Origin: Sitta carolinensis
Lineage: Eukaryota > Chordata > Aves > Passeriformes > Sittidae
Reading direction: 5' to 3'
Assembly (NCBI GenBank): GCA_032173965.1
Contig: CM063309.1
Location: 1,931,564 to 1,995,563, forward strand
Length of the DNA stretch: 64,000 nucleotides
Of this stretch, positions 1-63,235 are shown one piece after another. Made by a program: the position numbers and the translations under genes. The notes under the pieces are model-generated. The model did not search any database. It was not told the origin of the DNA and saw nothing but the letters and a program-made list of their open reading frames with translations. Within the stretch, counting starts at the first letter, position 1. The number at the start of each line of letters is the position of its first letter.

Positions 1-535
1 GGCGTGGAGGGACCCCCACCCTGTGTGACCCCCACCCTGTGTGACCCCCCACCCTGTGTGACCCCCACCCTGTGTGACCCCCCCAGGTACAGCCACATGG
101 CCTGGGGGACAGGGCACGCGTGGGACCCCTGAGGGGGGCGTGGAGGGACCCCCACTCTGTGTGACCCCCCACCCTGCCCGGGACCCCCACCCAGTGTGAC
201 CCCCACCCTGTGTGACCCCCCCAGGTACAGCCACATGGCCTGGGGGGACAGGGCACGCGTGGGACCCCTGAGGGGGGAGAGGAGGGAACCCCCACCCTGT
301 GTGACCCCCACCCTGTGTGACCCCCACCCTGTGTGACCCCCACCCTGCCCAGACCCCACCCTGTGTGACCCCCACCCAGTGTGACCCCCACCCTGTGTGA
401 CCCCCACCCTGCTCGGACCCCCACCCTGTGTGACCCCCACCCAGTGTGACCCCCACCCTGCCCAGACCCCCACCCTGTGTGACCCCCACCCTGTGTGACC
501 CCCACCCTGCTTGACCCCACCCTGTGTGACCCCCC
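1..535. repeat. CCCACCCTGTGTGAC minisatellite
   Basis: Tandem array built from a 15-18 base unit of the form GTGTGACCCCCACCCT, with variants CCAGTGTGAC and CCTGCCCGGACC. It is interrupted by two longer modules near 84-130 and 220-270 that resemble a gene start on the other strand (separate entry). No coding sequence is supported here. Confidence 0.85.
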
Positions 536-590
536 AGGTACAGCCACATGGCCTGGGAGGACAGGACACGCGTGGGACCCCCGACAGGAC
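84..590 (-). other. three copies of an RDH5-family start-exon fragment
   Basis: On the minus strand three modules read: pyrimidine tract, CCCAG, GCC, then ATG-TGG-CTG-TAC-CTG. The ATGs are at 98-96, 236-234 and 549-547. M-W-L-Y-L is the typical N-terminus of RDH16 and HSD17B6, and human RDH5 starts M-W-L. RDH5 is the human neighbour of BLOC1S1 and should lie here on this strand. After the five codons each copy dissolves into the minisatellite, with no hydrophobic helix and no TGxxxGxG cofactor motif. I read them as amplified copies of a splice acceptor plus start, with the true exon probably to the left of base 1. The short match makes this tentative. Confidence 0.4.
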
Positions 591-2935: not shown

Positions 2936-3107
2936 GGGGGATTAGGGCCCCAAGGGCCCCTTTGTCCCCACTCAAAGGAGCCTCAGAGCCTCGGTAAGCA
3001 CTAAAGAGGATGAGGGGGCTTAGGGGATCGGGGGGGGGGGCTGTGCCAGGGGCCCCCTGGCCCGGCCTGACCCCCCCCCCCACACCCCCCAACGCCCCCC
3101 CCCCAGC

Positions 3108-3113: not shown

Positions 3114-3243
3114 CCATGATCCCGGTGCCGGGGGCACGGTGGTGAGACACCCCCCCCTCCCCTCCCCCGTTACTGGCCGGCGCTGGGGGGCTCGGGGGGG
3201 CCGGGGGGGTTCCCGGGGGGTCCCGGGGGGTCCCGGGGGTCCC

Positions 3244-3354
3244 TCAGGAGCAGGGGGGCTGCAGCTGCCCCTTGTACACGTACTCGAGGGCCGTGGCGAT
3301 GGTCCTCATGTCCAGCTCGATGCTCCGGGCCCAGTTCTCCACGTCCCCGATCTC
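3244..3354 (-). CDS. BLOC1S1: BLOC1S1 exon 4 (last coding)
   Basis: Starts after CGCCCGCAG and encodes E-I-G-D-V-E-N-W-A-R-S-I-E-L-D-M-R-T-I-A and then T-A-L-E-Y-V-Y-K-G-Q-L-Q-P-P-C-S, stop TGA at 3246-3244. Phase 0, 37 codons including the stop. Nearly identical to vertebrate orthologues except the last residues. Confidence 0.95.
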   Translation of the reverse strand, partial: EIGDVENWARSIELDMRTIATALEYVYKGQLQPPCS

Positions 3355-6300
3355 CTGCGGGCGTTTGGGGAGGGGGCTCGCAGGGATTTTGGGGAGGGGG
3401 CTCACCCCGGGGCGGGGGGGGGGGGGGGGTCTCACCCTGCCATGCTCCTCCCAGGGATTTGGGGAGGGGGCTCACCCATCCCATTCCCCTGGGAAGCTCT
3501 GGGTGCCCCTCAAGATCCCCCAGGACCCCCTGGGTGCTGTCTGAGACCCCCTCAAGATCCCCCAGGACCCCCTGGGTGCTGTCTGAGACCCCCAAGAGAT
3601 CCCCCAGGACCCCCTGGGTGCTGTCTGAGACCCCCAAGAGATCCCCCAGGACCCCCTGGGTGCTGTCTGAGACCCCCAAGAGATCCCCCAGGACCCCCTG
3701 GGTGCTGTCTGAGACTCCCAAGATGTTCCCCAAGACGCCCTGGGACCCCCCTGGGTCCCTGCCCAAGACCCCCCGGGTGTTCCTCAAGACCCCCTGGGTG
3801 CTGCCCGAGACCCCCATGATGCTGCCCAGGACCCTCTGGGTGCTGCTCAAGACCCCCCAGATGTTCCCTGGGACCCCCTGGAGGCTCCCCAACCACTCCA
3901 GCACAATCTCAGGGGTCTGGGGGCTTCATTCCCCGCTCCATTTATGGGTCTGGGGGCTTCATTTGCTCCCTATGGATCTGGGGGCTACATCCTCCCCAGT
4001 ATGGGTCTGGGGGCTTCATCCCCCCTCTGTTCATGAGTCTGGGGGCTTCAGTCCTGCCCAAGGATGGGTTCTGGGAGGGTTTGGGGGTGCAGCCCCCCAC
4101 CTTGAGGGCCTGATTGATGTTCTACAGTTGGGGGGATTGGGCTGTGACCCCCCCCCCCTCCCCGGGCAGGTTTTGGGGTGTGACCCCCCCATACCCAGGT
4201 GGGTTTTGGGGTTTTAACCCCCCCCCCCATACCCGGCGGGTTTTGGGGTGTGACCCCCCCATACCCGGGCGGGTTTTGGGGTGTGACCCCCCCTGTACCC
4301 GGGCAGGTTTTGGGGTGTGACCCCCCCCCCCCCCATACCCAGGCAGGTTTTGGGCTGTGACCCCCCCATACCCGGCGGGTTTTGGGCTGTGACCCCCCCA
4401 TACCCGGGCGGGTTTTGGGCTGTGACCCCCCCATACCCGGGCGGGTTTTGGGTGTGACCCCCCCTCCCCGGGCGGGTTTTGGGGTGTGACCCCCCCCCCC
4501 CCCCCATACCCGGGTGGGTTTTGGGCTGTGACCCCCCCATACCCGGGCGGGTTTTGGGGTGTGACCCCCCCATACCCGGGCGGGTTTTGGGCTGTGACCC
4601 CCCCATACCCGGGCGGGTTTTGGGTGTGACCCCCCCCCCCCCCCCCATACCCGGGTGGGTTTTGGGCTGTGACCCCCCCATACCCGGGCGGGTTTTGGGG
4701 TGTGACCCCCCCCATACAAAGGGCAGGTTTTGGGGTGTGACCCCCCCCATACCCGGGTGGGTTTTGGGCTGTGACCCCCCCATACCCGGGCGGGTTTTGG
4801 GTGTGACCCCCCCCATACCCGGGCGGGTTTTGGGGTGTGACCCCCCCTCCCCGGGCGGGTTCTGGGGCGGGTTCGGGGGTGCAGCCCCCCACCTTGAGGG
4901 CCTGGTTGAAGTTCTCCACCATGGCGATCCAGTGGCCGGTCTGGCGGGCGAACTGCGCCGCCTGCACCTGCAGCGTCTTCACCTCCTGGTCCAGCTTGCG
5001 CTGGTTCACGTAGGCCTGGGCCACCCTGGGGGGCTCGGGGGTCGGCACGGGCCGGGGGGGCCTCCCCCGGCACCCCCCCAGTGAGGGGAGACCCCACAAA
5101 GAACCCGGGAAGGGCTGGGGAGGGGGCTTGGGGCAGCAGAGAGGAGGGGAAAGGTGCTGGGGAGGAGGGGAATCTGGGGGTGGGGGGCTTCAGGAAGGGG
5201 GTTTGGGGGGCTGGGGGTCTCTGGGAAGGGGATTTGGGGGGCTGGGGGTCTCTGGGGAGGGGTTTTGGAGGGTTGGGGCTCTCTGGGAAGGGGTTTTGGG
5301 GATCTGGGAGGAGTCTGTGAGGGTGGGGGTCTCTGGGATGGGGATTTGGGGAGCTGGGGGGTCTCTGGGATGGGGATTACAGGGGCTGGGGGGTCTCTGG
5401 GATGGGGATTTGGGGGTCTGGGGTCTCTGGGATGGGGATTTGGGGGGTCTGGGGTCTCTGGGAAGGGGATCTGGGGGGTCTCTTGGAAGAGGTTTTGTGG
5501 GGCTGGGGGCTCTGGGAAGGGGGTTTGGGGGGCTGGGGGTCTCTGGGAAGGGGATTTGAGGGGCTGGGGGATCTCTAGGATGAGGATTTGGGGGTCTGGG
5601 GGTCTCTGGGATGGGGATTTGGGGGGCTGGGTTCTCTCGGAAGGGGTTTTGGGGTCTGGGGGGAGTCTGTGAGGGTGGGGGTCTCTGGGAATGGGGGGGC
5701 TGTGAGGGTGCGGATCCTCGTTGAGGGGGTTGGGGGCGTCTGAGGGGGTCAGGGGTCTCTGGGAAGGGGATTTGGGGGTCTGTGGTTGTCTGTAGGGTTG
5801 AGGGGAGGTGTCTGGGGGTCTCTGAGAAGGGGGGGTCTGTGGGAAAAGGGGGGGCTCTGTGGGGTTGGGGGGTGTCTATAAAGTTGGGGGTCCATAACGA
5901 GGGGGTTCTGTGGGGGTCTGCGGGGCCGGGGGTCTCGGGGGTGGCAGGTCTGCAGGGTCTGGGGTCCGCAGGCGGGGTTTGGGGGCTCCAGGAGGGGGTT
6001 TGTGGGGGTGTCCCAGCAGGAGTTGGGGGATCCCGGAGGGTCGCGGGGGTCGCGGGCTCACCCCACGTTCAGGTGATCGACCAGGGCCTCGGTGAGGCGG
6101 GTGGCGGCCGCGATCGCCTCCCGGCGCCGCCGCTCTGGGGGGGACGGGCGGGGACAGCGCCGTGAGGGGCGGCGGGACCCCCGCCCGGGGCCCGTGACGT
6201 CACCAGCACCTCGCGTGACGTCACCGCGCGCAGCCGTGACATCACGGGCCTCCCCACCTCAGGCTTCCCGCCCTTTTCCCCCCACCCCGTTCTTTGACGG

Positions 6301-6470
6301 ACAGCCGCGTCAGCCAATGGGGTGCCGCTCTGCGGTGAGCGGCAGCCGCGGCAGCCAATGGGACGCGGCGGGCGGGGCGTGTTGCCATGGGTCCGGGGGC
6401 GGGGCTCACCCTGCAGCTCGCGCCGCTCGCTCTGCCGGGCCTGGTGCTCCTTCAGCAGCCGGGACAGCAT
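3244..6470 (-). CDS. BLOC1S1: BLOC1S1 (biogenesis of lysosome-related organelles complex 1 subunit 1), complete, 4 exons
   Basis: Minus-strand gene with coding exons 6470-6410, 6134-6062, 5025-4893 and 3354-3244. They join in phase to a 125-residue protein, the usual length of the family. It begins M-L-S-R-L-L-K-E-H-Q, continues through A-L-V-D-H-L-N-V-G-V-A-Q-A-Y and ends E-Y-V-Y-K-G-Q-L-Q-P-P-C-S. From family knowledge BLOC1S1 (GCN5L1) is a small helical subunit of BLOC-1 and BORC, acting in endosome-lysosome trafficking and lysosome positioning, and it also affects mitochondrial protein acetylation. No signal peptide or membrane segment is visible. An in-frame ATG lies 39 bases upstream (6509); I chose 6470 by homology. 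Introns 2 and 3 are packed with minisatellites. The neighbour on the other strand is ITGA7, as in human 12q13.2. Confidence 0.95.
3475..3905. repeat. BLOC1S1 intron 3 minisatellite (CCCCAGGACCCCCTGGGTGCT)
   Basis: About 57-bp unit, GATCCCCCAGGACCCCCTGG followed by GTGCTGTCTGAGACCCCCAA. It is repeated cleanly five times (3500-3720) and then in degenerate form to about 3900. No exon content is recognised. Confidence 0.85.
4078..4130 (-). repeat. BLOC1S1: degenerate copy of the BLOC1S1 exon 3 / intron 3 junction
   Basis: GTGCAGCCCCCCACCTTGAG then GGCCTGATTGATGTTCTAC matches the true exon 3 end and donor (4881-4917) with a few substitutions. It includes the AAG|GTGGGG donor on the minus strand. 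It lies on the intron side, at the far end of the repeat block that separates it from the real exon. Confidence 0.8.
4131..4870. repeat. BLOC1S1 intron 3 minisatellite (CCCATACCCGGGCGGGTTTTGG)
   Basis: About 20 tandem copies of a 33-40 base unit of the form TGTGACCCCCCCATACCCGG followed by GCGGGTTTTGGG. The array is flanked by the real exon 3 donor on one side and its copy at 4078-4130 on the other. Confidence 0.9.
4893..5025 (-). CDS. BLOC1S1: BLOC1S1 exon 3
   Basis: Acceptor CCCCCCAG, then G-GTG-GCC. Encodes V-A-Q-A-Y-V-N-Q-R-K-L-D-Q-E-V-K-T-L-Q-V and Q-A-A-Q-F-A-R-Q-T-G-H-W-I-A-M-V-E-N, ending F-N-Q-A-L-K before donor GTGGGG. 133 bases, phase 2 in and 0 out, consistent with both neighbours. 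Confidence 0.95.
5110..5870. repeat. BLOC1S1 intron 2 minisatellite (GGATTTGGGGGGCTGGGGGTCTCTGGGA)
   Basis: About 30-base G-rich unit, GGGGATTTGGGGGGCTGG plus GGGTCTCTGGGAAG, repeated some 20 times with many indels. G-runs on the plus strand suggest G-quadruplex potential. Confidence 0.85.
6062..6134 (-). CDS. BLOC1S1: BLOC1S1 exon 2
   Basis: 73 bases encoding (E)-R-R-R-R-E-A-I-A-A-A-T-R-L-T-E-A-L-V then D-H-L-N-V-G. Acceptor CCCCCAG, donor GTGAGC. Phases fit exon 1 (ends CAG-G) and exon 3 (starts G). Confidence 0.95.
6195..6359. promoter_or_regulatory. CRE and CCAAT motifs in BLOC1S1 intron 1
   Basis: Two perfect CRE palindromes TGACGTCA (6195-6202, 6216-6223) and two CCAAT boxes (6314-6318, 6355-6359), each within a G(T)CAGCCAATGG context. 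This is a CpG-island-like stretch free of repeats. The motifs lie just downstream of coding exon 1 and could belong to the same promoter domain. Factor binding is inferred from motif only. Confidence 0.55.
6410..6470 (-). CDS. BLOC1S1: BLOC1S1 exon 1 (coding part)
   Basis: Encodes M-L-S-R-L-L-K-E-H-Q-A-R-Q-S-E-R-R-E-L-Q plus one base, donor GTGAGC. Start at 6470 matches the short human isoform; the ATG at 6509 would add 13 alanine/arginine-rich residues. Confidence 0.93.
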
Positions 6471-9500: not shown

Positions 9501-9840
9501 GGGACAGGGGGGTCTATAGGGGCTGGGGGGTGTCTATAGCGGCTATAGGGGATGGGGGGATCCTATGGCGGCTATATGGGATGGGGGGATCCTATGGCGG
9601 CTATAGGGGCTGGGGGGGGTCTAGAGGGGCTGGGGGAAAGTGAGGGGATCTATAGGATACTGGGGGAGCTATAGGGACTGTAGGGGACAGGAGGGGTCTA
9701 TAGGGGATGGTGATTGTCTATAGGGGCTATAGGGGACTGGGGGTCCTATAGGGGATGGGGGACAGCTCCAGGGGATTGTGAGTCTATAGGGGACTGGGGA
9801 GTTCTATAGGGGGCTGAGGGTTCTATAGGGGGCAGGGAGC
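6565..9840. repeat. 3.3-kb (TATAGGGGATGGGGGG)n minisatellite
   Basis: Roughly 180 irregular copies of a 16-19 base unit, CTATAGGGGATGGGGGG or ATATAGGGGATGGGGGG, drifting after 9240 to GACAGGGGGG/ATCCTATAGGGG variants. Each unit has two G-runs of four or more, so the G-rich strand is strongly G-quadruplex prone. Unit length varies by single bases throughout. No gene is present. Confidence 0.95.
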
Positions 9841-13320: not shown

Positions 13321-13532
13321 ATGGCGAGCTCGGGCTGCCGGGGGCTACGGCCGCCGGCCCTGTGGCTACCGTGGCTGGCCCTGTGGCTACCGTGGCTGGC
13401 CCTGTGGCTACCGGCGGCCGCCGCCTTCAACCTGGACGGCAGCGGCGCGGTGCTGAAGGACGGCGAGCGCGGCAGCCTCTTCGGCGCGGCCGTGGCGCTG
13501 CACCGGCAGCTGAGCCCCGAGCCCGCCGGGTG
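13321..13532 (+). CDS. ITGA7: ITGA7 exon 1 (signal peptide and mature N-terminus)
   Basis: Starts M-A-S-S-G-C-R-G. The signal peptide core is a coding repeat of the heptad W-L-P-W-L-A-L (13361-13412), then P-A-A-A-A before mature [10 protein letters not shown]. It ends P-E-P-A-G-W across donor GTGAGC. The [12 protein letters not shown] segment matches alpha-7. Confidence 0.95.
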
Positions 13533-16500
13533 GTGAGCGCGGGGCCCGGGGGGGCGAGCGGGGCGAGACCCCCGGCCTGGGGAGGGACGGAGCCCCCGGG
13601 AATGGGGGGCAGAGGGGAGCGGGGTTGGGAGGGCCCCAACCCCGGGGCTGGGGGGGGGGGGGGGTCCTGTTGCCGGGATTTGGGGAGTTCCCGGGCTGGG
13701 GAGGGGTCGTGCTCCCGGAATTTGGGGGGGATCGGGACCCCCGGGGCTGGGGGGGATCCTGTTGAGATTTGAGGGGGTCCGGCGGGACGAAGCCCTGGGG
13801 CTGGGGGCGTGCGGCCCCCGGGAATGGGGCTGGGGTCTCCGGGACTGGGGAGAGCACGAGACCCGGCCACTGGGCTGGGGAGGGACCGGGGTCCCCGGGA
13901 TTTGGGGGTTCGGGAGGCGCGGGGCTGAGGGGGCCCGGGACCCCCGGCGCCGCGCCCAGGGCGCTGCAGAGCGAGGGGACGGTGACAGCGGGGACAGTGA
14001 CGGGAGCCACGGGGCCAGTGCCAGGCGGCCTGCGCGGCCGGGATTATTCAGCATTAGCGGGGGAGGGGGGCTCTGGGGGGGCTCGGGGGGCGAGCGCTGC
14101 TCCGGAGCTCTCGGCTGGAGGGACCCCCCCCCCTCCCCGGCCGGGCCCCCCGGGCCCCGTGGCGAACGCCCACCCGCCACTGCCGGCCACGGCCCCGGGG
14201 CCCCGGGTCCCCCCAGTCCCCGGGACCCCCCGGCAGCCCCCGGGCCGCAGCCGGGGGTCTCAGCCATGGGGACCCCCGGAGCGGGCAGGTCCCAGCGCGC
14301 TGTCACCCGCGTGTCCCCACCCTGCGTGTCCCCCCAGCCCTCTGTCGCCGCTGTCGCCGCCGTGTCGCAGCGCTGCCGCCGCCCGCGCCGCGTTCCTGGC
14401 ACCGAGGGCGGTTTGGCTCCGGTGCCCGGTGCAGGTGTTGGCGGAGCCGCGCTGGGCTCGGCTCCAGCGGCGCGGCCCCGCTGTCCCCTCCTGTCCCCGG
14501 TGTCCCCGGTGTCCCCGGTGTCCCCCGGTTCCCGGCGGGGCCCGGTCCGGCTCTGTCCCCTCTCCGGGTGCCCTGGCCCGGCTCCGTGGGGCACCCGGTG
14601 CCTCCGTGCGCTCCCTCCTTTTTTGGGCATGCTGCTGCGCGGTTATTTTGAGTGAATTCCAGTTTATTTTTACCGGCTCTGCCTCCCTGCCACCTCCCGG
14701 GGCTCCGCCGTGTCCCCGGGCCGCCGGCACCCCGGGCACAGCGGCCGGGGGCGACCCCGAGCGCCCCGCGGCCACCGGGGACCCGCCGGTGGTGGCACCG
14801 CGCGGGTCCCGGTGGGGAGAGAGCCCCGGGGGGGTCAGGGGGTGTTTGGGGTGTCCCGGCCGTGTCCCCTCCTGTCCCCACGCGTGTCCCGAGGCCGGGA
14901 GCGGCGCTGGGGCGGCAGCTGCACCGGGGGTGGCACAGCTGCGCGGGGGTGGCACAGCTGCACCGGGGGTGGCACAGCTGCGCGGGGGTGGCACAGCTGC
15001 ACCGGGGGTGGCACAGCTGCGCGGGGGTGGCACAGCTGCACGGGGGTGGCACAGCTGCACCGGGAGTGGCACAGCTGTGCGGGGGTGGCACAGCTGCGCG
15101 GGGGTGGCACAGCTGCACCGGGGGTGGCACAGCTGTGCGGGGGTGGCACAGCTGCACGGGGGTGGCACAGCTGCACGGGGGTGGCACAGCTGTGCGGGGG
15201 TGGCACAGCTGCGCGGGGGTGGCACAGCTGCGCGGGGGTGGCACAGCTGCACCGGGAGTGGCACAGCTGTGCGGGGGTGGCACAGCTGCACGGGGGTGGC
15301 ACAGCTGTGCGGGGGTGGCACAGCTGCGCGGGGGTGGCACAGCTGTGCGGGGGTGGCACAGCTGCGCGGGGGTGGCACAGCTGTGCGGGGGTGGCACAGC
15401 TGTGCGGGGGTGGCACAGCTGCACCGGGGGTCCCGGGGGGTGAGGGGGACACTGAGGAGCCCACCCCCCCAGCCCTGACGGGGGTCCCTGCCCTGCCAGG
15501 CTGCTGGTCGGAGCCCCCCAGGCGCTGGCGCTGCCCGGCCAAGGTGCCAACCGCACCGGGGGTCTCTTCGCCTGCCCGCTGACCCCCGAGCTCTCCGACT
15601 GCTGGCGGGTGCCCATCGATGAGGGAGGTGAGCTGGGACCCCGGGGGGGTCCCCGGGAGGGGTGGTCCCGGCCGGGCTGACCCCTCCCCGTGCCCACCAG
15701 TGGACCCGGAGCGGGAGAGCAAAGAGAACCAGTGGCTGGGGGTCAGCGTCAAGAGCCAAGGGCCCGGCGGCAAGATCGTGGTGAGCACCGGGGGTGGCGG
15801 CCGGGGGACACCGGGGACACCTTCGGGACGGGGTTGGGAGGTGGTCCGGGCCGGCTGTGACCCCCGCCGGTGCCCCCCACTCCCCCAGACCTGCGCCCAC
15901 CGGTACGAGGTGCGGCACCGGGTGCGGCAGCCGCTGGAGACGCGGGACGTGATCGGGCGCTGCTTCGTGCTGAGCCAGGACCTGAGCGTGCGGGACGAGC
16001 TGGACGGCGGCGAGTGGAAATTCTGCGAGGGGCGACCGCAGGGCCACGAGCGCTTCGGCACCTGCCAGCAGGGCCTGGCGGCCGCCTTCAGCCCCGACCG
16101 CCGCTACGTGCTGCTCGGCGCCCCCGGCACCTACAACTGGAAGGGTGAGGGGCGCCGGGACCCCCCCACCCCACCACGGGGGGCGTTTGGGGGTCTGGGT
16201 GGGTGGTCCTGATCAGAGATCCCGGGACCCACAGTTGGGAGGGTGAGGGGCGGTGAGACACACACCCCCCCCCCCCAGTATGGGGGTTTGAGTGTTTGTG
16301 GGGTCTGGGTGGGTGGTCTTGCTCGGAGACCCCGGGACCTGTAACTGGAAGGGTGAGGGGCGCTGGGACCCCCACTGTGGGGCAAAGAGGGGGCTCGAGG
16401 CTGACCCAGGGAGGGGGGGGGGGAATGTGAGGTGTGGGGCTGTATCACGAGGGTCCCTCGGGGTGCCCTGTGGTGTCTCTGGGGGTCCCCATGTCCCCCC

Positions 16501-19500
16501 TCACCTGGGGAGGGGTCCCTGCTCAACCGGAGCTCCCTGGAACCCTCGGCTCCCTCGGTGTCCCCTCACCTGGGGAGGGGTCCTCGCCCGTGGAGCCGCT
16601 CCGGCTGAAATCCCCGGAGCTCGGGGGTCTCGGGAGGGTCTCGGGAGGGTCCCCGCGGTGTCCCCACGGTGTCCCCACGGTGTCCCCGCTGTCCCCGGGG
16701 CCCGCAGGGACCCTGCGCGTGGAGCAGCTCAACCAGAGCTCCCTGGACCTGCTGCGCCTCGACGCCGGCCCCTTCGAGGCGGGGGGCGAGAAGGACCAGG
16801 ACCCCTCGCTCATCCCCGTGCCCGCCAACAGCTACTTCGGTACGGGGGGGGGGCCCGGCCCGGGGGACCACCCCCCTCCGGCAGCCGCGGCCCCCCCCGC
16901 GCCCCCCGAGCCGCCCTGACGCCCCCTCCCCTGTCTCTGTCGCGGTCGCAGGGCTGCTCTTTGTGACAAACATTGAGAGCGCGGCCCCCGACCAGAGGGT
17001 CTTCCGGACCCCCCAGCCCGGAGAGAGGGTCCCCGGCGCGGCCGCGGACGTGGCGCACAATTCCTACCTGGGTTCGTGCGTGCCACGCCTGTGCCACCTG
17101 CGTGCCACCTGCGTGCCACCTGTGTGCCGTGTGTGACCCTCCCCGCGCCGTGTCGCCCCCCGGCAGGGTCCTGCGGGCACACGCGTGTGCGCTGTCACAC
17201 GTGTCCCCCACCGCTCCAGGGTGGGGGTCCCCTCCCCGCACGCTCAGGTGTCACCCCGCACACGCGGGGCGCCTTCACGGGTGTCCCTGTGGACACAGGT
17301 GTCACCTGTGTGCACCTGACACGCTCAGGTGTCACCTGTACACTCAGGTGACCCTCCAGACACAGATCCCGCCCCTCCCATGTCCCCAGACACGCCCCTG
17401 GCCCCACGCTGCGCACACCTGGCCCCACCCTGCGCACACCTGGCCCCGCACACGCAGCCCCCCACACGTGTGGCCGCATCGCCCCCCCGCCACTGCACGA
17501 CCCCTCCCCTCTCGTGTCTGTCACCCCCCGGTGTCACCGAGCCCTGTCCCCCCAGTCCCCCTCCCCAAATCCCCGTGTCCCCCAATCCCTGTCCCCCCTC
17601 CTCTGTCCCTCATTCCTGTCCCCAATCCCTGTCCACCCCTGTCCCCCCAATCCCCGTGTCCCCATTCCTGTCCCCATCCCTGTCCCCATCCCTGTCCTCA
17701 TCCCTGTCCCATCCCTGTCCCCGTCCCTGTCCCATCCCTGTCCCCATCCCTGTCCCCGTCCCTGTCCCATCCCTGTCCCCATTCCTGTCCCCATCCCTGT
17801 CCCCATCCCTGTCCCCATCCCTGTCCCATCCCTGTCCCGTCCCTGTCCCATCCCTGTCCCCATCCCTGTCCCCATTCCTGTCCCCATCCCTGTCCCATTC
17901 CTGTCCCCATTCCTGTCCCCAATCCCTGTCCCTATTCCTATCCCCGTCCCTGTCCCGTGTCCCATCGCTGTGCCAGGGCTGTGTTGGGGGCGCTGCCAGG
18001 CTTGGGGAGGGGTCCCAGATCTTTGGGGAGGGGGTCCCAGAGCTTTGAGGGGGTCCCAGAGCTTTGAGGGGGTCCCAGAGTCTTGGGGGGGGGTCTCAGA
18101 GGTTTGAGGGGGGGTCCCCGAGCCTGGCATGTCCCCGCACCCCCCGTGTCCCCGCTTGTCCCCCGGTGATGTTTGCGCATGGGGGGGTGCATGGATTGTG
18201 GGGAGGGGGCTGGAGCCTGGCTGGGGGCTCGGGGGGCTCTGGGGGGGCTTTGGGGGGCTCGGGAGGCTGCTCACGGCAACCACTGCATGTGGGGAGGGGG
18301 CTCTGCTCTGGGTTTTGCTGCTCTGGCCCCCAAATTCTGCCCGTTTTCCCCAAATTTTGCCCTTTCCCTCCAGATTTTGCCCTTTCCCCCCAAATTCTGC
18401 TCTTCTGGCAATTCTTGGGCCGGGGGGAGCTGCACCTCGTCCCCGATTCCCAGAAGGACAATTCCCCCATTTCCCCCATCCCGACCCATTTTTTCCCCCA
18501 TTTCTACCAGGAGAATTCTCGGGGCTGGGGGTGACCGGGGGTGTCCCCGTGTCCCCTGTCCCCAAACCCCGGGTGTCCCCCGTCCCCGCAGGGTTCTCGG
18601 TGGACTCCGGGGTGTCCCCAAACCCCGGGTGTCCCCGCAGGGTTCTGGATGTCACCGGGGGTGTCCCCAAACCCGGGTGTCCCTGTCCCCGCAGGGTTCT
18701 CGGTGGATTCCGGGAGTGTCCCCTGTCCCCAAACCCCGGGTGTCCCCCGTCCCCGCAGGGTTCTCGGTGGATTCCGGGGTGTCCCCAAACCCCCGGGTGT
18801 CCCCGCAGGGTTCTGGATGTCACCGGGGGTGTCCCCAAACCCCGGGTGTCCCTGTCCCCCAGGGTTCTCGGTGGATTCCGGGAGTGTCCCCTGTCCCCAA
18901 ACCCCGGGTGTCCCTGTCCCCCAGGGTTCTCGGTGGATTCCGGGGTGTCCCCGTGTCCCCTGTCCCCAAACCCCGGGTTGTCCCTGTCCCCGCAGGGTTC
19001 TCGGTGGATTCCGGGGGTGTCCCCTGTCCCCAAACCCCGGGTGTCCCTGTCCCCGCAGGGTTCTCGGTGGATTCCGGGGGTGTCCCGTGTCCCCTGTCCC
19101 CAAACCCCGGGTGTCCCTGTCCCCCAGGGTTCTCGGTGGATTCCGGGGGTGTCCCCTGTCCCCAAACCCCGGGTGTCCCTGTCCCCCAGGGTTCTCGGTG
19201 GATTCCGGGGGTGTCCCCTGTCCCCAAAGCCCGGGTGTCCCTGTCCCCCAGGGTTCTCGGTGGATTCCGGGGGTGTCCCCTGTCCCCAAAGCCCGGGTGT
19301 CCCTGTCCCCCAGGGTTCTCGGTGGACTCCGGGGGTGTCCCCTGTCCCCAAAGCCCGGGTGTCCCTGTCCCCCAGGGTTCTCGGTGGATTCCGGGGGTGT
19401 CCCCTGTCCCCAAAGCCCGGGTGTCCCTGTCCCCGCAGGGTTCTCGGTGGATTCCGGGGGTGTCCCCTGTCCCCAAACCCCGGGTGTCCCTGTCCCCCAG

Positions 19501-24851: not shown

Positions 24852-24882
<31 letters not shown>

Positions 24883-36814: not shown

Positions 36815-36829
36815 GCGACACGGCACGGA

Positions 36830-38339: not shown

Positions 38340-53919
<15,580 letters not shown>

Positions 53920-53943
<24 letters not shown>

Positions 53944-54735
53944 CACCAGAGTGGGACACCAGGGACACCAGAGTGGGACACCAGGGACACCAGTGACACC
54001 AGAGTGGGACACCAGGGACACCAGAGTGGGACACCAGGGACACCAGTGACACCAGAGTGGGACACCAGGGACACCGGGATGGGACACCAGGGACACCAGT
54101 GACACCAGTATGGACCAGCAGGGACACCAGTGACGACACCAGTGACACCAGGATGGGACCAGGATGGGACTGGGAACATCCCAGTGACACCAGGATGGGA
54201 CCAGGATGGGACTGGGAACATCCCAGTGACACCAGGATGGGACTGGGAACATCCCAGTGACACCAGGATGGGACCAGGATGGGACTGGGACGCTGCCAGT
54301 GACACCCTAAGGATACCAGTGCTCCCAGTTTGGAACTGGGACTGTCCCAGTGACCTCCCAGTGACACCAGAATGGGACTGGGACCATCCCAGTGACACCA
54401 GTTTGGGACTGGGAACATCCCAGTGACACCAGTTTGGGACTGGGACCATCCCAGTGACACCAGTTTGGGACTGGGACCATCCCAGTGACACCAGTTTGGG
54501 ACTGGGAACATCCCAGTGACACCAGTTTGGGACTGGGACCATCCCAGTGACACCAGTTTGGGACTGGGAACATCCCAGTGACACCAGGATGGGACTGGGA
54601 ACATCCCAGTATTCCCAGTTCAGCTCTGCTCCCATCCCAGTATTCCCAGTTCAGCTCTGCTCCCATCCCAGTATTCCCAGTTCAGCTCTGCTCCCATCCC
54701 AGTATTCCCAGTTTGGCTCTGGTCCCCTCCCATCA
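53920..54735 (+). repeat. (CCAGTGACACCAG...GGGACTGGGA) minisatellite in the MCRS1 3'UTR
   Basis: 53920-54130: CACCAGGGACACCAGAGTGGGA units. 54130-54600: ATGGGACTGGGAACATCCCA and GTGACACCAG units. 54600-54735: (GTATTCCCAGTTCAGCTCTG) units. Includes the stop codon at its left edge. Confidence 0.92.
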
Positions 54736-55955: not shown

Positions 55956-58900
55956 CTGCGGGAAAAGGGGGGAATGGTCCCAAATCCTGAGGAATCCCAA
56001 ACCCTGGGAAAAGGGGGGAATGGTCCCAAATCCTGAGGAATCCCAAACCCTGGGAAAAGGGGGGAATGGATCCCAAATCCTGGGAAATCCCAAATCCTAA
56101 AGGGGGAAAAGGTCCAATAGACCCAAATCCTGGATGATCCCAAATCTGCGGAATGGAATGATCCAACCTATCCCAAGCACCCATCCCATCCGATCCGACC
56201 CAATTCCCTGTTCCCACCCCCAATGTCCTGCCTGATCCCAACATTCCCAATCCCAAACCCCATCCTACCCAATCCCCTGTCCCAAACCCCAGTCCCTTCC
56301 TAAACCCAATCCCGATTCCCAATCCCCGATCCCAATCCCATTCCCAAACCCCATCCCCATACCCAATCCCCAATCCCATTCCCAAATCCCGATCCCGATT
56401 CCAACCCCAATCCCAACCCCTAATCCACAATCCCATCCCAAATCCATCCTGATCCCAAAACCCAATCCCGATCCTAATCCCAATCCTCCAATCCCTGATC
56501 CCAACCCAATCCCACATCCCAAACCCCAATCCCTGATCCCAAACCCCAATCCCAGATTCCAAACCCCAATCCCTGATCCCAGATCCCAATCCCTGATCCC
56601 AAACCCCAATCCCAGATCCCAAACCCCAATCCCAGATCCCAACCCCAATCCCCAATCCTGATCCCAAGTCCCAGATCCCAAATCCCAATCCCTGATCCCA
56701 AATCCCAAACCCTGATCCCAAATCCCAATCCCTGATCCCAGATCCCAATCCCAAACCCCAATCCCCAATCCCAGACCCCAATCCCAGATCCCAAATCCCA
56801 ATCCCTGATCCCAGATCCCAATCCCCGATCCCAATCCCACAATCCCAGATCCCAAATCCCCAATCCCCAATCCCGCTGTTCCAGCCCCACCTGTGGGGCC
56901 GGCAGTGGCTCCGTCGGGGCCGCGCCGTCCTCGGGGCATCCCGGGAATTCTGGGGGGCCTGGGGGGGATCCTGGGGCTGATCCCGAGAATCCTGGGGCTG
57001 ATCCTGGGGGTGATCCCGAGGTTGATTCCAAGGTGGATCCCAAGGTTGATCCCGAGGTTGATCCCAGAGCTGATCCTGCCGGGCTGGCGGGGCCGGAGCT
57101 GCAGCGGGAGTGGCTGGAATAGCTCAGCCTGGGGTGGGAAACTGGGGAGAGAGGAGACACTGGGAATACTGGGAATACTGGGAATGGGAATACTGGGAAT
57201 ATTGGAAATACTGGGAGCACTGGGACTGGGGCCAGGCTCCAGGTGGGACCCCAGACCCACCCAGATCCTGTGGGATTTTCCTGGGATTTTCCCCCAGAAT
57301 TCCCAGGTAAATTTTTCCCCAATTCCCAGGTGGATTTTCCCAGAATTTCCAGGTGGACTTCTCCTGTGATTCCTCCTGAATTCCCAGGTGGATTTTCCCA
57401 GGGATTCACCCAGAATTCCCCGGTGGATTTCCCCACATTCCCAGGTGGATTTTCCCCACATTCCCAGGTGGATTTTTCCCACATTCCCAGGTGGATTTTC
57501 CCCACATTCCCAGGTGGATTTTCCCCAGGATTTCCCCACATTCCTCCAGGTGGATTTTCCCCATTCCCAGTGGATTTTCCCGGGATTTCCCCCATTCCCA
57601 CCGTGCCCGAAGGCGCCGATGCTGCCCCGCAGCCCCTCCAGGTGGATTTTCCCCATTCCCAGTGGATTTTCCCGGGATTTCCCCCATTCCCACCGTGCCC
57701 GAAGGCGCCGATGCTGCCCCGCAGCCCCTCCAGGTGGATTTTCCCCATTCCCAGTGGATTTTCCCGGGATTTCCCCCATTCCCACCGTGCCCGAAGGCGC
57801 CGATGCTGCCCCGCAGCCCCTCCAGGTGGATTTTCCCCATTCCCAGTGGATTTTCCCGGGATTTCCCCCATTCCCACCGTGCCCGAAGGCGCCGATGCTG
57901 CCCCGCAGCCCCTCCAGGTCGCAGCCGAAGCGCCCGGCCCGGCCCAGCTCCTCATCGAACTTGCGCTCGCTGACAAAGTGCTGGGAACACGGGAAAAACG
58001 ACGGAAACACAGTGGGAATGGGGAAACAATGGAGAAAACACACGGGAAAACCAGTGGGAATGGGGAAACAACGGAGAAAACAACGGGGAAACCAGTGGAA
58101 TGGGAAACAACGGGAAAAACAACGGGAAAACCAGTGGAATGGGGAAACAACGGAAAAACGACGGGAAAACCAGTGGGAATGGGAAACAACAGGAGAAACA
58201 ATGGGGAAAACAGTGGGAATGGGGAAACAACGGAAAAACAATGGGAGAAACAATGGGAAAAACAATGGAAAAACAATGGGAAAAACAATGGGAAAAACAA
58301 TGGAAAAACAATGGGAAAAACAATGGGAAAAACAATGGGAATGGGAAACAATGGGAAAACACAATGGGAGAAACAATGGGAGAAACAATGGGATCCATTG
58401 GGAATGGGAAGCTAGGGGTTGGAATTCCCCTGGGATCAGGGTGGGAATTCCTGGGGGATCAGAGTGAGAATTCCTAGGGATTTGGGCAGGAATTCCTAGA
58501 GGAATGGGCAGGAATTCCTGGAATTCCCAGGGGATTGGGTGGGAATTGCCCTGGATCAGGGCAGGAATTCCCAGGGGATCAGGGCAGGAATTCCCGGGGA
58601 TCAGGGCAGGAATTCCTGGGAATCAGGGCAGGAATTCCCAGGGATCAGGCAGGAATTCCCGGGGATCAGGGCAGGAATTCCCGGGGGATCAGGGCAGGAA
58701 TTCCCGGGGGATCAGGCAGAATTCCTGGGGGATCAGGGCAGGAATTCCCAGGAATTCCCTGGGATCACCTTGATGTCTGCCGGAGTCCAGGAGCTGCTCC
58801 TCGCTCATGCCGGAAGGCGGCCCGTGAGAGCGCGCAGAGCCTCGGCCCGGGCCTGCCGCACCGACAGCAGATCCACTGGGAATGAAATGGGAAAAATGGG

Positions 58901-61900
58901 AATGAAAATGGGAATAAAATCCATCAGAGCCTCGGCCCGGCCTGCCGCACCGACAGCAGATCCACTGGGAATGAAATGGGAAAAATGGGAATGAAAATGG
59001 GAATAAAATCCATCAGAGCCTCGCCCGGGCCTGCCGCACCGACAGCAGATCCACTGGAATGAAATGGGAAAAATGGGAATGAAAATGGGAATAAAATCCA
59101 TCAGAGCCTCGGCCCGGGCCTGCCGCACCGACAGCAGATCCACTGGGAATGAAATGGGAAAAATGGGAATGAAAATGGGAATAAAATCCATCAGAGCCTC
59201 GCCCGGGCCTGCCGCACCGACAGCAGATCCACTGGGAATGAAATGGAAAAATGGGAATGAAAATGGGAATAAAATCCATCAGAGCCTCGGCCCGGGCCTG
59301 CCGCACCGACAGCAGATCCACTGGGAATGAAATGGGAAAAATGGGAATGAAAATGGGAATAAAATCCATCAGAGCCTCGGCCCGGGCCTGCCGCACCGAC
59401 AGCAGATCCACTGGAATGAAATGGGAAAAATGGGAATGAAAATGGAATAAAATCCATCAGAGCCTCGGCCCGGGCCTGCCGCACCGACAGCAGATCCACT
59501 GGGAATGAAATGGGAAAAATGGGAATGAAAATGGGAATAAAATCCATCAGAGCCTCGGCCCGGGCCTGCCCACGACAGCAGATCCACTGGGAATGAAATG
59601 GGAAAAATGGGAATGAAAATGGGAATAAAATCCATCAGAGCCTCGGCCCGGGCCTGCCGCACCGACAGCAGATCCACTGGGAAAATGGGAAAAATGGAAT
59701 GAAAATGGGAATAAAATCCATCAGAGCCTCGGCCTGGGCCTGCCGCACCACAGCAGATCCACTGGGAATGAAATGGGAAAAATGGGAATGAAAATGGAAT
59801 AAATCCATCAGAGCCTCGGCCCGGCCTGCCGCACCGACAGCAGATCCACTGGGAAAAGTGGGAATAAAAATGGAAAAATGGGAATAAAATCCATCAAGCC
59901 TCGCCCGGGCCTGCCGCACCGACAGCAGATCCACTGGGAATGAAATGGGAATAAAAATGGGAATAAAATGGGAATAATCCATCAGGGAACCCAGCCTGGG
60001 CCTGCTGCAGGGACAGCAGATCCACTGGGAATGAAAATGGGAATAAAATGGGAATGAAAATGGGAATTATTGGGAATAAAATCCATCAGGGCCTGCCACA
60101 GGGACAGCAGATCCATTGGGAAAAAATGGGAATAAAACCTGGGAATTACTGGGGAAAAAACCCTTGGAATTTAGGGAAAAAGCCTTGGGAATTGGGGAAA
60201 AAAACCCCCAGGAACTGGGTAAAGAAACCTTGGAATTCAGGGGAAAAAAAAACACTGGAATTTAGGGAAAACCCTTGGAATTTAGGGAAAACCACTGGAA
60301 TTGGGAAAAACCCTGGGAATTGGAGAATAAACCCTGGGATTTAGGGAATTTCACCTGGGAAATGGGGGAAAATCCTGGGAAAACTGGGAATTCTGGATGG
60401 GAAAAGCAGATGGGAAATGGGGAATTCTCTTCCCAGCCTCTCAGGAATCCTGGGAATTCCCTCCCAGCTCCTGAATTCAGGAATTTTGGGAATTTTGCTC
60501 ACTTGCTTCTGCCTTGACTTTGTCCATCTCAGCCAGCAGAGCCACCTCCCGATCCATGAGGCTGGAATGGGGAAAAATGGGAAAAAAAATGGGAAAAACA
60601 GGGAAAAATGGGGGAAATTGGGATAAAAACAGGGAAAAATGGGGAATAAATGGGAAAAAACCGGGGAAAATTGGGGGAAAACAGGGAAAAGGGAGAGGGT
60701 TTGGATGGAATGGGGAAAAAGGGAGGGAAATTCGGGAAAAATTGGGAAAAAGGGGAAAAAAAAAGGAAAAGCAGGAAAGGGAGGGGCAGGGAGTGGCCGC
60801 GAGAGGGCGCCCGGACCCGCGGGAAAGGGAAAATCGGGAATGGGAGCAGGAAGAGAATTTTTTTCCCATAAAATTCCCTTAAATCCTCTTTTCTTATCAT
60901 CCCTCACCTCCAGCCCATCCTAAAAACATGGAATTCCCAAATTCCCAGATTTCCCATCAGCTCTGGAGCTCCCAGAATGTTCCTCTCACCTCGGGGGCTC
61001 TGCAGCCCAAACCCCCCAGGATCTCCAGAATCCCAAATTCCCAGGATCCCAGATTCCAAACTCCCAAATTCCCAGATTCCCCAATCCCAAACCTCAGGAA
61101 TTTGGGGAATGTTGTGATTCCCCACCAGCTCTGGAGCTCCCCGAAGGCTCCCCTGACCCTCCTCAGGGAGCTCTCCACCCCAAACCCCTGGAATTCTCCA
61201 ATCCCCGATCCCAGCCCAGCCGCGATTCTCAATTCCTCAATTCCCCATTCCCAAATTCCCAAACTCCCAGAATTCCCACATTCCCAAATGTTGGAATGTT
61301 GTGATTCCCCACCAGCTCTGGAGCTCCCCAAAGGCTCCCCTCACTCTCCTCAGGAGCTCTCCACCCCAAACCCCCAGAATTCTCCGATCCCCGATCCCAG
61401 CCCAGCCGCGATTCCCAATTCCCCAATTCCAATTTCCCAGATTCCCATGTTCCCAAATTCCCAGAATTCCCAAATTTCGGGAATGTTGTGATTCCCCACC
61501 AGCTCTGGAGCTCCCCAAAGGCTCCCCTGACCCTCCTCAGGGAGCTCTCAACCCCAGAATTCTCCGATCTCCGATCTCAGCCCAGCCGCGATTCCCCATT
61601 TCCCCAATCCCAAACTCCCAAACTCCCAGAATTCCCACATTCCACATTCCCAAATGTTGGAATGTTGTGATTCCCCACCAGCTCTGGAGCTCCCCAAAGG
61701 CTCCCCTCACTCTCCTCAGGGAGCTCTCCACCCCAAACCCTCCAGAATTCTCCGATCCCCGATCCCAGCCCAGCCGCGATTCCCAATTCCCCAATTCCAA
61801 TTTCCCAGATTCCCATGTTCCCAAATTCCCAGAATTCCCAAATTTCGGGAATGTTGTGATTCCCCACCAGCTCTGGAGCTCCCCAAAGGCTCCCCTGACC

Positions 61901-63235
61901 CTCCTCAGGGAGCTCTCAACCCCAGAATTCTCCGATCTCCGATCTCAGCCCAGCCGCGATTCCCCATTTCCCCAATCCCAAACTCCCAAACTCCCAGAAT
62001 TCCCACATTCCCACATTCCCAAATGTTGGAATGTTGTGATTCCCCACCAGCTCTGGAGCTCCCCAAAGGCTCCCCTCACTCTCCTCAGGGAGCTCTCCAC
62101 CCCAAACCCTCCAGAATTCTCCGATCCCCGATCCCAGCCCAGCCGCGATTCCCCATTTCCCCAATCCCAAACTCCCAGAATTCCCAGATTCCCAAATGTT
62201 GGAATGTTGGGACTCCCCACCAGCTCTGGAGCTCCCCGAAGGCTCCCCTCACTCTCCTCAGGGAGCTCTCCACCTCGAGGCGCAGCAGGGAGCGGAAGCG
62301 CGCCAGGGCCACGGAGCAGCGCTGCAGATCCTTCAGGGAGCGCTCCAGGCTGCAGCCTGGGGGAAAAAAGGGAAAAAAAGGGGAAAAAAAAAAGGGAAAA
62401 ATGATGGAAAATATTCCCAGGTTATCTTGATTTCCCCCTCAATTTTTTCATGATTTTTTTCTGAATTTTTCTCGATTTTTTTCCAATCTTTTCCTGATTT
62501 TTTCCCAATTTTTTCCTGATTTTTTCCCAATTTTATCTTGATTTTTTTCTCTGATTTTATCTGGATTTTCCCCTGATTTTATTCTGATTTTATATTGATT
62601 TTATTCTGACTTTATCCTGATTTTATTCTGATTTTATATTGATTTTATCCTGATTCTACTATGATTTTATTCTGATTTTATCCTGAGTTTATTCTGATTT
62701 TATCCTGAGTTTATTCTGATTTTATCCTGATTTTATTCTGATTTTATATTCATTTTATCCTGATTCTATTTTGTTTTTATCTGGACTTTTCCCCTGATTT
62801 TTTCCTGATTTTTCCCTGATTTTATATTGATTTTATCCTGATTTTATCCAGATTTTTTCCTGATTCTATTCTGATTTTATCCCCATTTTTCCCCACTTTT
62901 TATCCTGATTTTATCCCCATTTTTTCTCAATTTTTCCTGATTTTCCCTGAATTTTTCCCAATTTTTTCCTGATTTTTATCCCAATTTTTCCCTGATTTTC
63001 CCCCATTTTTATCCCAATTTTTTCCCACTTTTTATCCCAATTTTCCCCTGATTTTTTTCCAGATTTTTCCCACTTTTTCTCCTGATTTCTCCCAATCCCC
63101 AAACTCCCATTTCCCCCCCAAATTCCCATTTTTCCCCCTTTTCCTTACCCAGTTTTTTCCCACTGGGGCTGCTCCGGAGGCCCCGCGAGGGCTGGGATTG
63201 GGATTGGGAAAACGCTGGAATTCCGTTCCCTAGGG
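55700..63235 (-). CDS. SPATS2: SPATS2 (spermatogenesis-associated serine-rich protein 2), partial
   Basis: Minus-strand gene recognised from S-L-K-D-L-Q-R-C-S-V-A-L-A-R-F-R, C-L-M-D-R-E-V-A-L-L-A-E-M-D-K-V-K-A-E-A, H-F-V-S-E-R-K-F-D-E-E-L-G-R and V-S-H-P-R-L-S-Y-S-S-H-S-R-C-S-S. They line up in order with human SPATS2. Paralogue SPATS2L fits less well, and MCRS1 is the human neighbour of SPATS2. Exons: 63235-63149, 62356-62221, 60561-60503, 58875-58769, 57980-57878 and 57141-56891, plus an uncertain last exon near 55955-55700. The N-terminal exons are not found and probably lie beyond base 64000. SPATS2 is a cytoplasmic, RNA-associated coiled-coil protein of unclear function. One exon is damaged by three missing bases, and three exon borders are amplified. 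Confidence 0.9.
55965..56110. repeat. (GGAATGGTCCCAAATCCTGA) repeat, three copies
   Basis: Unit of about 45 bases with CCCTGGGAAAAGGGGGGAAT and GGTCCCAAATCCTGAGGAAT. Intronic to SPATS2. Confidence 0.85.
56270..56880. repeat. (CCAATCCCTGATCCCAAAC) minisatellite
   Basis: About 35 copies of a 12-18 base unit GATCCCAAACCCCAATCCC in a SPATS2 intron. Noncoding; the long W/G/D-rich minus frames are artefacts. Confidence 0.9.
56891..57141 (-). CDS. SPATS2: SPATS2 Ser/Gly-rich exon
   Basis: Acceptor CTCCCCAG. Encodes V-S-H-P-R-L-S-Y-S-S-H-S-R-C-S-S-G-P-A-S, then a repetitive G-S-T-S-G-S-T-L segment coded by a GATCC(C/A)(A/G)AGGTT-type minisatellite (56960-57080), ending P-L-P-A-P-Q. Donor GTGGGG. 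The coding minisatellite is the serine-rich region. Confidence 0.82.
57290..57590. repeat. (TTCCCAGGTGGATTTTCCCC) minisatellite
   Basis: About 12 copies of a 22-30 base unit ATTCCCAGGTGGATTTTCCC in a SPATS2 intron, merging into the exon-derived unit at 57590. Confidence 0.9.
57591..57877 (-). repeat. SPATS2 exon-donor-derived repeat: three decoy donors
   Basis: Unit of 92 bases. CCACCGTGCCCGAAGGCGCC, GATGCTGCCCCGCAGCCCCT, CCAGG on plus copies the end of the exon at 57980-57878 (minus: E-G-L-R-G-S-I-G-A-F-G-H, donor GTGGGA). The linker is TGGATTTTCCCCATTCCCAG. Three exact copies lie on the intron side. Confidence 0.95.
57878..57980 (-). CDS. SPATS2: SPATS2 exon (H-F-V-S-E-R-K)
   Basis: Encodes H-F-V-S-E-R-K-F-D-E-E-L-G-R-A-G-R-F-G-C and D-L-E-G-L-R-G-S-I-G-A-F-G-H. 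Human H-F-V-S-E-R-K-Y-D-E-D-L-G-R-V-A-R-F. Acceptor TTCCCAG, donor GTGGGA. Confidence 0.93.
57985..58400. repeat. (GGGAAAAACAATGGGAAAAAC) minisatellite
   Basis: Purine-rich array of 14-30 base units AACAATGGGAAAAACAATGG and CCAGTGGGAATGGGGAAACA. SPATS2 intron. Confidence 0.9.
58430..58765. repeat. (GGGATCAGGGCAGGAATTCCC) minisatellite
   Basis: About 15 copies of a 21-24 base unit GGGGATCAGGGCAGGAATTCC. It contains EcoRI-like GAATTC palindromes. SPATS2 intron. Confidence 0.92.
58769..58875 (-). CDS. SPATS2: SPATS2 exon (D-L-L-S-V-R-Q-A), damaged
   Basis: Encodes (M)-D-L-L-S-V-R-Q-A-R-A-E-A-L-R-A-L-T-G-R. The frame then slips by one near CCGGCATGAG and by two near GGACTCCGGCAG, where M-S-E-E-Q-L-L and A-D-I-K are expected. 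107 bases instead of about 110, so phase is restored at the end. As written a TGA follows P-A. Donor GTGATC. Confidence 0.8.
58876..60115 (-). repeat. SPATS2 exon-acceptor-derived repeat: about 14 decoy acceptors, 89-bp unit
   Basis: Plus-strand unit: AGCCTCGGCCCGGGCCTGCC, GCACCGACAGCAGATCCACT, GGGAATGAAATGGGAAAAAT, GGGAATGAAAATGGGAATAA AATCCATCAG. On minus each copy gives CATTCCCAG|TGGATCTGCTGTCGG, i.e. the exon acceptor and D-L-L-S-V-R-Q-A-R-A-E. Copies lie upstream of the exon on the intron side. Confidence 0.96.
60120..60420. repeat. (CTTGGAATTTAGGGAAAAAC) repeat
   Basis: About 10 copies of a 25-28 base unit CCTTGGAATTTAGGGAAAAA. SPATS2 intron. Confidence 0.85.
60503..60561 (-). CDS. SPATS2: SPATS2 exon (L-M-D-R-E-V)
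   Basis: Encodes (C)-L-M-D-R-E-V-A-L-L-A-E-M-D-K-V-K-A-E-A, identical to human SPATS2 over this stretch. Acceptor CATTCCAG, donor GTGAGC. 59 bases, phases fit both neighbours. Confidence 0.95.
60562..60950. other. SPATS2 intron, purine-rich
   Basis: GGGAAAAATGGGAAAA-rich degenerate repeat to 60770, then unique sequence with a TTTTTTTCCC tract and TTAAATCCTC. No exon. Confidence 0.5.
60951..62220 (-). repeat. SPATS2 exon-donor-derived satellite: six to seven decoy donors, unit about 183 bases
   Basis: Each unit carries on plus CCACCAGCTCTGGAGCTCCC, AAAGGCTCCCCTCACTCTCC, TCAGGGAGCTCTCCACC. On minus this is E-S-S-L-R-R-V-R-G-A-F-G-E-L-Q-S followed by donor TG|GTGGGG, the 3' half of the exon at 62356-62221. 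Copies near 61131, 61312, 61499, 61677, 61867 and 62050, plus a diverged one at 60958. Linkers include ATCCCAGCCCAGCCGCGATT. Confidence 0.95.
62221..62356 (-). CDS. SPATS2: SPATS2 exon (S-L-K-D-L-Q-R-C)
   Basis: Encodes C-S-L-E-R-S-L-K-D-L-Q-R-C-S-V-A-L-A-R-F, R-S-L-L-R-L-E-V-E-S-S-L and R-R-V-R-G-A-F-G-E-L-Q-S-C. Human I-E-K-S-V-K-D-L-Q-R-C-T-V-S-L-A-R. Acceptor CCCCCAG, donor GTGGGG; 136 bases, phases consistent. Confidence 0.94.
62430..63110. repeat. (CCTGATTTTATTCTGATTTTATC) AT-rich minisatellite
   Basis: About 45 copies of an 11-13 base unit CTGATTTTAT(C/T)C, the longest AT-rich block in the window. SPATS2 intron. Noncoding. Confidence 0.9.
63149..63235 (-). CDS. SPATS2: SPATS2 exon (serine-rich)
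   Basis: Acceptor TTTTTCCAG. Encodes A-L-G-N-G-I-P-A-F-S-Q-S-Q-S-Q-P-S-R-G-L and R-S-S-P-S-G-K-K-L. Human ends this segment S-K-K-L. Donor GTAAGG. The acceptor choice is moderate: CCCTAG six bases further in is an alternative. Confidence 0.7.

Follow-up and report, generated by a model that had tools for sequence, protein, structure and literature searches.

Genes and repeats at the locus

The introns of a 64,000-nucleotide stretch of the Sitta carolinensis genome (hereafter the window) contain numerous copies of their own exon edges, splice sites included. The window carries BLOC1S1, ITGA7, MCRS1 and SPATS2, and RDH5 lies just beyond its left end. The pattern is very probably exon stuttering as described in chicken, here in a songbird: a pervasive local tandem expansion of non-coding DNA on a dot-like microchromosome, in which random units straddle the exon-intron junctions.

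The assembly comprises 252 contigs (1,031,649,674 bases), and the window is part of contig C34 (3,208,401 bases). It is GC-rich (0.42-0.77 in 2-kb steps) and tandem repeats make up 68% of it, in 133 merged stretches, according to Tandem Repeats Finder (TRF). Contig size, GC content and protein matches point to a dot-like microchromosome; the dot chromosomes have been defined by Huang et al. 2023 (PMC9974502). Exons were defined by spliced protein-to-genome alignment, with human proteins as guides. The resulting gene models are:

3247..6470, minus strand: BLOC1S1, 4 coding exons (6470-6410, 6134-6062, 5025-4893, 3354-3247); spliced alignment and homologues
13322..36815, plus strand: ITGA7, 26 coding exons used; spliced alignment and homologues
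38985..53920, plus strand: MCRS1, 13 coding exons used, with a placeholder start for the exon that ends at 43248; spliced alignment and homologues
56891..62356, minus strand: SPATS2, 5 coding exons used; spliced alignment with human guide

Homologues support the predicted identity of the first three genes. For the spliced BLOC1S1 protein, identity is 96% with Molothrus and 94-95% with a duck, a dove and a cuckoo. Best protein matches are passerine for both MCRS1 (Agelaius, Geospiza) and ITGA7 (Anomalospiza, Hirundo, Manacus); the ITGA7 translation aligns with the top bird proteins at over 99% coverage, and by eye the BLOC1S1 and MCRS1 translations match bird proteins as well. SPATS2 was assigned from its human guide protein and from SPATS2L-like matches elsewhere in the genome. 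RDH5 is encoded on the minus strand; its start codon begins 338 bases to the left of window base 1, at C34:1931226. Its spliced alignment scored -2.8 within the window alone, and the model was obtained with flanking contig sequence.

Small frame breaks were called in coding exons of MCRS1, ITGA7 and RDH5, and likewise in ITGA6 on contig C13, so that base-level differences among copies are unreliable. Within otherwise conserved exons of the window they occur at about 24059, 32990, 45806 and 48854, perhaps also at 46551, and at least two fall in C runs; probably they are assembly errors. No position could be assigned to the MCRS1 exon expected around 42770-42830. At 42770-43014 the exon encoding KPADDLLLINAVLQ in other birds is unrecognisable here, and this stretch contains two copies of exon end plus donor, GTGCTGCAG/GTGAGG.

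Exon-edge copies within introns

The tested set consisted of 43 introns, hence 86 edges, in the four genes. An edge was considered copied if its exon-terminal 20-mer recurred in its own intron with up to 3 edits; sources deeper in the exons were probed by one interior 20-mer per edge only. Insecure ends were excluded: the acceptors before 38985 and 43248, both edges of the MCRS1 exon near 42770-42830, the SPATS2 exon near 63150-63235 and the SPATS2 C-terminal exons. Copies were found at 18 of the 86 edges (8/43 donors and 10/43 acceptors), amounting to 115 copies in 16 of the 43 introns. Dinucleotide-shuffled introns gave 0.15 copies in total, by which chance and low complexity are rejected. 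This comparison of edges with their own introns had been proposed in an earlier note on the same DNA, and its claim of a junction-spanning expansion in several unrelated genes on both strands stands far above chance. The arrays and copies are:

87..557, minus: RDH5 start-exon acceptor (..CAG/GCCATGTGGCTGTAC), 3 copies upstream of the start exon (from flanking contig)
4101..4120, minus: BLOC1S1 exon 3 end plus donor, single copy, 772 bases into intron 3
16333..16352, plus: ITGA7 exon 4 end plus donor, single copy
18592..19720, plus: acceptor plus exon 7 start, ITGA7 intron 6, 17 copies, unit mostly 62-71 bases
20996..21435, plus: ITGA7 exon 8 end plus donor, 5 copies
25950..27398, plus: sequence related to acceptor plus exon 16 start, ITGA7 intron 15, 22 diverged copies, unit about 62 bases
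33536..33555, plus: acceptor plus exon 23 start, ITGA7 intron 22, one exact copy, 152-base unit
39185..39430, plus: MCRS1 exon end (junction 39087) plus donor, 3 copies
39557..39576, plus: acceptor plus start of MCRS1 exon 39948, single copy
41256..41398, plus: near-complete second copy of MCRS1 exon 39948-40096, many small gaps or indels, about 1.3 kb downstream
42376..42396, plus: acceptor plus start of MCRS1 exon 42651, copy
43772..43956, plus: acceptor plus start of MCRS1 exon 43995, 4 copies, unit about 58 bases
44327..45664, plus: acceptor plus start of MCRS1 exon 45725, 18 copies, unit mostly 69-80 bases
46018..46212, plus: MCRS1 exon end (junction 45863) plus donor, 2 copies, 175-base unit
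47539..48036, plus: acceptor plus start of MCRS1 exon 48067, 9 copies, unit about 51 bases
51997..52708, plus: acceptor plus start of MCRS1 exon 53026, 5 copies
57602..57805, minus: SPATS2 exon end plus donor (junction 57877), 3 copies, 92-base unit
58945..60115, minus: acceptor plus start of SPATS2 exon 58875, 14 copies, unit about 89 bases
60958..62067, minus: SPATS2 exon end plus donor (junction 62220), 7 copies, unit 168-189 bases

Two or more copies are present at 12 of the 18 copied edges and one copy at the other 6, which bears out the note's count of at least 15 arrays. Five of the single copies lie at 208-1303 bases (donors of BLOC1S1 intron 3 and ITGA7 intron 4, acceptor 39947 and both edges of intron 40097-42650); the sixth, in ITGA7 intron 22, is one 152-base unit away. 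The copied exon part reaches 18-144 bases (median of the maxima 33.5), and median copy spacing in the 12 arrays with at least two copies is 51-180 bases. The splice AG or GT is intact in 110 of the 115 copies, in agreement with the note's estimate of roughly a hundred decoy sites with correct exon edges. Leaving aside the 22 divergent copies in ITGA7 intron 15, which are a poor match to the true junction (9-12 differences in 36 bases), 90 of 93 keep it. Interior 20-mers taken 25-45 bases inside the exons recur in the intron in 6 of 79 cases, all of them where large units have been copied at the edge or in the intron, or in MCRS1 and SPATS2. The acceptor array that the note had placed at an RDH5-like start was confirmed from the flanking contig as that of the RDH5 start exon: of 5 copies 3 are in the window (87-106, 225-244, 538-557), and 2 together with the true exon lie to its left. 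A DNA search with window positions 45833-46355 returned one full-length match only. The sequence at 41256-41398 may represent either a false duplication that escaped polishing or an exon copy that has decayed.

Splice junctions within repeat-rich introns

The earlier note regarded the junctions as seeds of the arrays. We therefore determined, for the 36 introns longer than 150 bases, which 20-mers have another copy in the same intron as a function of their distance to the junction. The repeated share rises steadily, from 3% at -40 (in the exon) and 11% at -20 to 26% at the junction itself, and further to 38% at +10, 49% at +20 and 69% at +45; among interior intron 20-mers it is 79% (1722/2178). 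Of the intron offsets listed, the junction is thus the lowest in the pooled data (19/72, against 50/72 at +45). When edges are paired, the junction alone is repeated once and +45 alone 32 times (sign test, p 8e-9). The pooled trend without a peak is the same with words of 16, 20 and 30 bases, and it is present in ITGA7 as well as in SPATS2 taken with BLOC1S1. Moreover, 20 of the 36 long introns have no edge copy, yet in 31 of the 36 at least 66% of the interior 20-mers are repeated. Seven of the 25 ITGA7 introns are short (73-112 bases), and these seven contain no repeated 20-mers at the tested offsets.

Control genes of the same genome were compared in edge copies and TRF coverage. Median TRF coverage of the window introns is 78%, and RDH5, beside the window on C34, has the same coverage (78%) with 3 of 6 edges copied. 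ITGA6 (26 introns) and SPATS2L (10 introns), both on the 38-Mb contig C13, have copies at 0 of 72 edges and an intron TRF coverage of 1%. ITGA3 (24 introns, median length 99.5 bases), on the 6.3-Mb contig C32, has 1 of 48 edges copied at a coverage of 17%; this lone acceptor copy is found at C32:863187 (L018). Exon pieces below 15 bases, one in SPATS2L and one in ITGA3, were excluded. We take ITGA6, ITGA3 and SPATS2L to be ohnologs of the window genes. Exon layout and lengths are common to ITGA7, ITGA6 and ITGA3, from which it follows that the ITGA7 introns are old; for ITGA7 this also rules out the birth of a new intron inside a former exon.

A random-placement model, with ancestral intron lengths taken from the seven short introns and unit lengths from TRF, accounts for the number of copied edges. 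One random founder unit per long intron gives 15.9 expected edges (95% 10-22) against the 18 observed, and founders as counted by TRF give 26.5 (20-33); variants that require a minimum intron part give 16.8-31.6. Random placement hence predicts about as many copied edges or more, and the observed count is explained without targeting. The deficit relative to the multi-founder model is consistent with selection against duplicated splice signals. With the gradient lacking a peak and random placement sufficing, junction targeting was rejected: splice junctions are probably not special targets but sites at which a general repeat expansion spills over. The note's view of junctions as seeds is accordingly not upheld.

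The following mechanism would fit these observations. Units of tens to about 200 bases may be duplicated at roughly random places, and because unexpanded introns measure only 73-112 bases, a random unit will often straddle a splice junction. If intron part a and exon part e are duplicated in tandem, a-e-E becomes a-e-a-e-E. The exon body E remains attached to a single copy. The rest necessarily end up in the intron, flush against the junction or a neighbouring copy, and each such event would stack further splice sites with their exon edges there. The intron-side, abutting position emphasized in the earlier note follows from the geometry of any tandem duplication that spans a junction and needs no extra process. 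Selection would remove events that break the reading frame or harm the splice signal. Exon definition favours the site adjoining the exon body, which is probably why the decoys are tolerated. The duplications themselves might arise through replication slippage or repair, or through unequal meiotic exchange, in GC-rich DNA, as suggested in the available text of Hron et al. 2026 (PMC12954441).

Several observations weigh against this reading. Edge copies are patchy in frequency even on the same contig, as the edges of the SPATS2 5' exons (first three only; 0/4) and of CD63 (0/12), both on C34, are uncopied. In MCRS1 alone, with 20-base words, the share is flat from -10 to +10 (9, 11 and 10 of 22) before reaching 19/22 at +45. 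The random model draws its ancestral intron length from seven short introns and its founder number from TRF. Furthermore, the exon share of the unit is below one half in 12 of 12 multi-copy arrays (0.11-0.46), for which uniform random breakpoints need extra selection.

Expansion directed at the junctions, for instance by breaks at co-transcriptional structures or by AGGT-like microhomology, with the intron arrays growing from such seeds, would account for the recurrence over several genes, both strands, and donors as well as acceptors. It would also fit the duplicated blocks in passerine proteins described below, three of four of which touch edges stuttering here. It is nonetheless improbable given the pooled minimum at the junction, the many long introns that are repeated throughout but have no edge copy, and the sufficiency of random placement. 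An assembly artefact, with arrays produced by unresolved long-read errors or false duplications, is more doubtful still. Single-base frame breaks in several exons, the degraded full-exon copy at 41256-41398 with its many small gaps and the frame breaks called in ITGA6 on a large contig speak for it. Base-level errors, however, do not produce arrays confined to sequence of the C34 type, and the same assembly has 0/72 edges on C13; the copies also have in common variants that the true junction lacks, as arrays that evolve would. In chicken, moreover, the repeat structure of PHF8 introns was checked against raw nanopore reads, as stated in the available text of PMC12954441.

That the copies are kept to buffer or tune splicing, as the earlier note also considered, we regard as highly improbable. 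The AG or GT is kept in 110 of 115 copies, but the splice dinucleotide is only about as unchanged as the adjacent exon bases, so that no special constraint is shown; this column test is weak, as copies were chosen by exon match and are not independent. Decoy distances spread over all three frames (30, 26 and 37 of 93), which leaves buffering without support and leads us to reject frame-tuned decoys. Edge copies are also less frequent than intron repeats in general. Inactivated decoys were rejected too, in view of the same dinucleotide counts. As far as this weak test goes, there is no sign of either upkeep or inactivation of the decoys.

Repeats in exons, predicted proteins and known systems

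Of the 5,779 exon bases used, 10.3% fall in TRF repeats, against 73.6% of the remaining bases. Of 11 TRF rows mostly within exons 10 have a period divisible by three (overlapping rows, from three exons); at a lower score cut this is 16 of 20. The in-frame repeats are a 21-base (7-codon) repeat in the ITGA7 signal peptide (13343-13420), a 9-base repeat in ITGA7 exon 24964-25122 (25019-25066), and repeats of 12 to 36 bases in SPATS2 exon 56891-57141 (56933-57078). The exons used remain recognisable; three hold these in-frame repeats, and several carry the single-base frame breaks that resemble assembly errors. It looks as if a single general expansion process were filtered by the reading frame. 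The selection against exon intrusion supposed in the earlier note is plausible, given the exon parts of 18-144 bases, the drop of repetition towards the exon and the in-frame periods. Predicted ITGA7 proteins of other passerines have similar N-terminal repeats, often with a 7-residue period (P0241, P0245, P0246, P0247, P0255, P0262, P0332, P0336).

For each gene, the best 120 predicted proteins listed, from birds and other species, were searched for duplicated peptides with exact words of 7 residues. BLOC1S1 yielded 1/120: in Pseudopodoces (P0001), TGHWIAMVENFNQALK, the end of exon 3, is repeated exactly up to the exon edge. ITGA7 yielded 31/120, of which 2 have exon duplications; in the other 29 the duplicated words come solely from the natural DLAVGAP repeat, from N-terminal repeats or from repeats that the query lacks. 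In Passer montanus (P0336) exon 7 is repeated from its first full residue and, separately, so is a stretch over exons 19-20, and in Onychostruthus (P0245) exons 23-24 are repeated. MCRS1 yielded 4/120, namely 3 with C-terminal repeats of one Agelaius gene and 1 with an exon duplication in the naked mole-rat. Three of the four passerine blocks touch edges that stutter here (exon 3 donor, exon 7 acceptor, exon 23 acceptor) and the block over exons 19-20 does not, in a post hoc match of few cases among computer-predicted proteins. Songbird stuttering may thus be a recurrent source of exon duplications at particular junctions, where arrays are inherited or predisposed and decoys are sometimes used. 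We consider this unlikely, as the fourth block touches no stuttering edge and two blocks span two exons, which false duplication in draft contigs could produce as well.

The locus is very probably a passerine instance of the exon stuttering that Hron et al. described in February 2026 on chicken dot chromosomes (PMC12954441), so the earlier note's statement that no standard feature class exists no longer applies. According to the available text of that paper, 115 genes and 236 introns are concerned, 190 of them on dot chromosomes. The source lies at most one base from the exon border in over 90% of cases and splice sites are copied too; intron length is strongly polymorphic, and expansions were seen in other birds as well. 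Replication stress and repair, or meiotic events, are proposed there as possible causes. As far as that text goes, the likeness is close. In both systems, imperfect direct repeats between tens and hundreds of bases long are found locally in the introns next to the exon; they include the exon's lateral part together with its splice site, and their source is at the exon border. The introns are heavily covered by repeats (here the median of 78%), the copied exon parts are of similar length (18-144 bases, median 33.5, against 20-187, median 36), and ohnologs elsewhere are without copies, which here holds for 0/72 edges in ITGA6 and SPATS2L and 1/48 in ITGA3, the ohnology being presumed. Edge copies are present in both, the 18/86 found here being counted by terminal 20-mers and those in chicken by a BLASTn bit-score screen.

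Differences concern the species, a passerine, and the genes, as the main text of PMC12954441 does not name the five found here. Repeats crossing into exons were not seen in chicken according to that paper, whereas three coding exons have in-frame repeats here; nor does its available text contain a test of junctions against neighbouring intron positions. Tandem-repeat introns in GC-rich 'hidden' avian genes were described by Beauclair et al. 2019 (PMC6792250), in whose available text exon-edge copies are unmentioned. Intron gain by tandem genomic duplication (PMC4974935) is similar in that, as its available text has it, the duplicated stretch carries splice signals; it differs for ITGA7, where the introns are old and no new intron is made. 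Among the papers listed, none other was by title or opening of the abstract about exon-edge arrays in birds, with subscription literature thinly covered.

New here are the gradient without a peak, the depletion towards the junctions and the in-frame repeats within three exons, together with the exon duplications in proteins predicted for three further passerines. The quantitative test distinguishes splice-site targeting from the spill-over of a general growth of repeats. Should the junctions be mere bystanders, what needs explaining is the expansion of entire dot chromosomes, and the way in which splicing manages about a hundred near-perfect decoys across four genes.

A few further observations concern repeats around these genes. 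The naked mole-rat duplication in predicted MCRS1 (P0140) is an 18-residue repeat, outside birds. Several predicted MCRS1 isoforms of Agelaius tricolor run into C-terminal peptide repeats (P0121-P0123), and in the window a repeat array follows directly after the MCRS1 reading frame (53921-54732). Finally, a minisatellite of 3.3 kb, its unit about 17 bases long, occupies 6565-9833, between BLOC1S1 and ITGA7.

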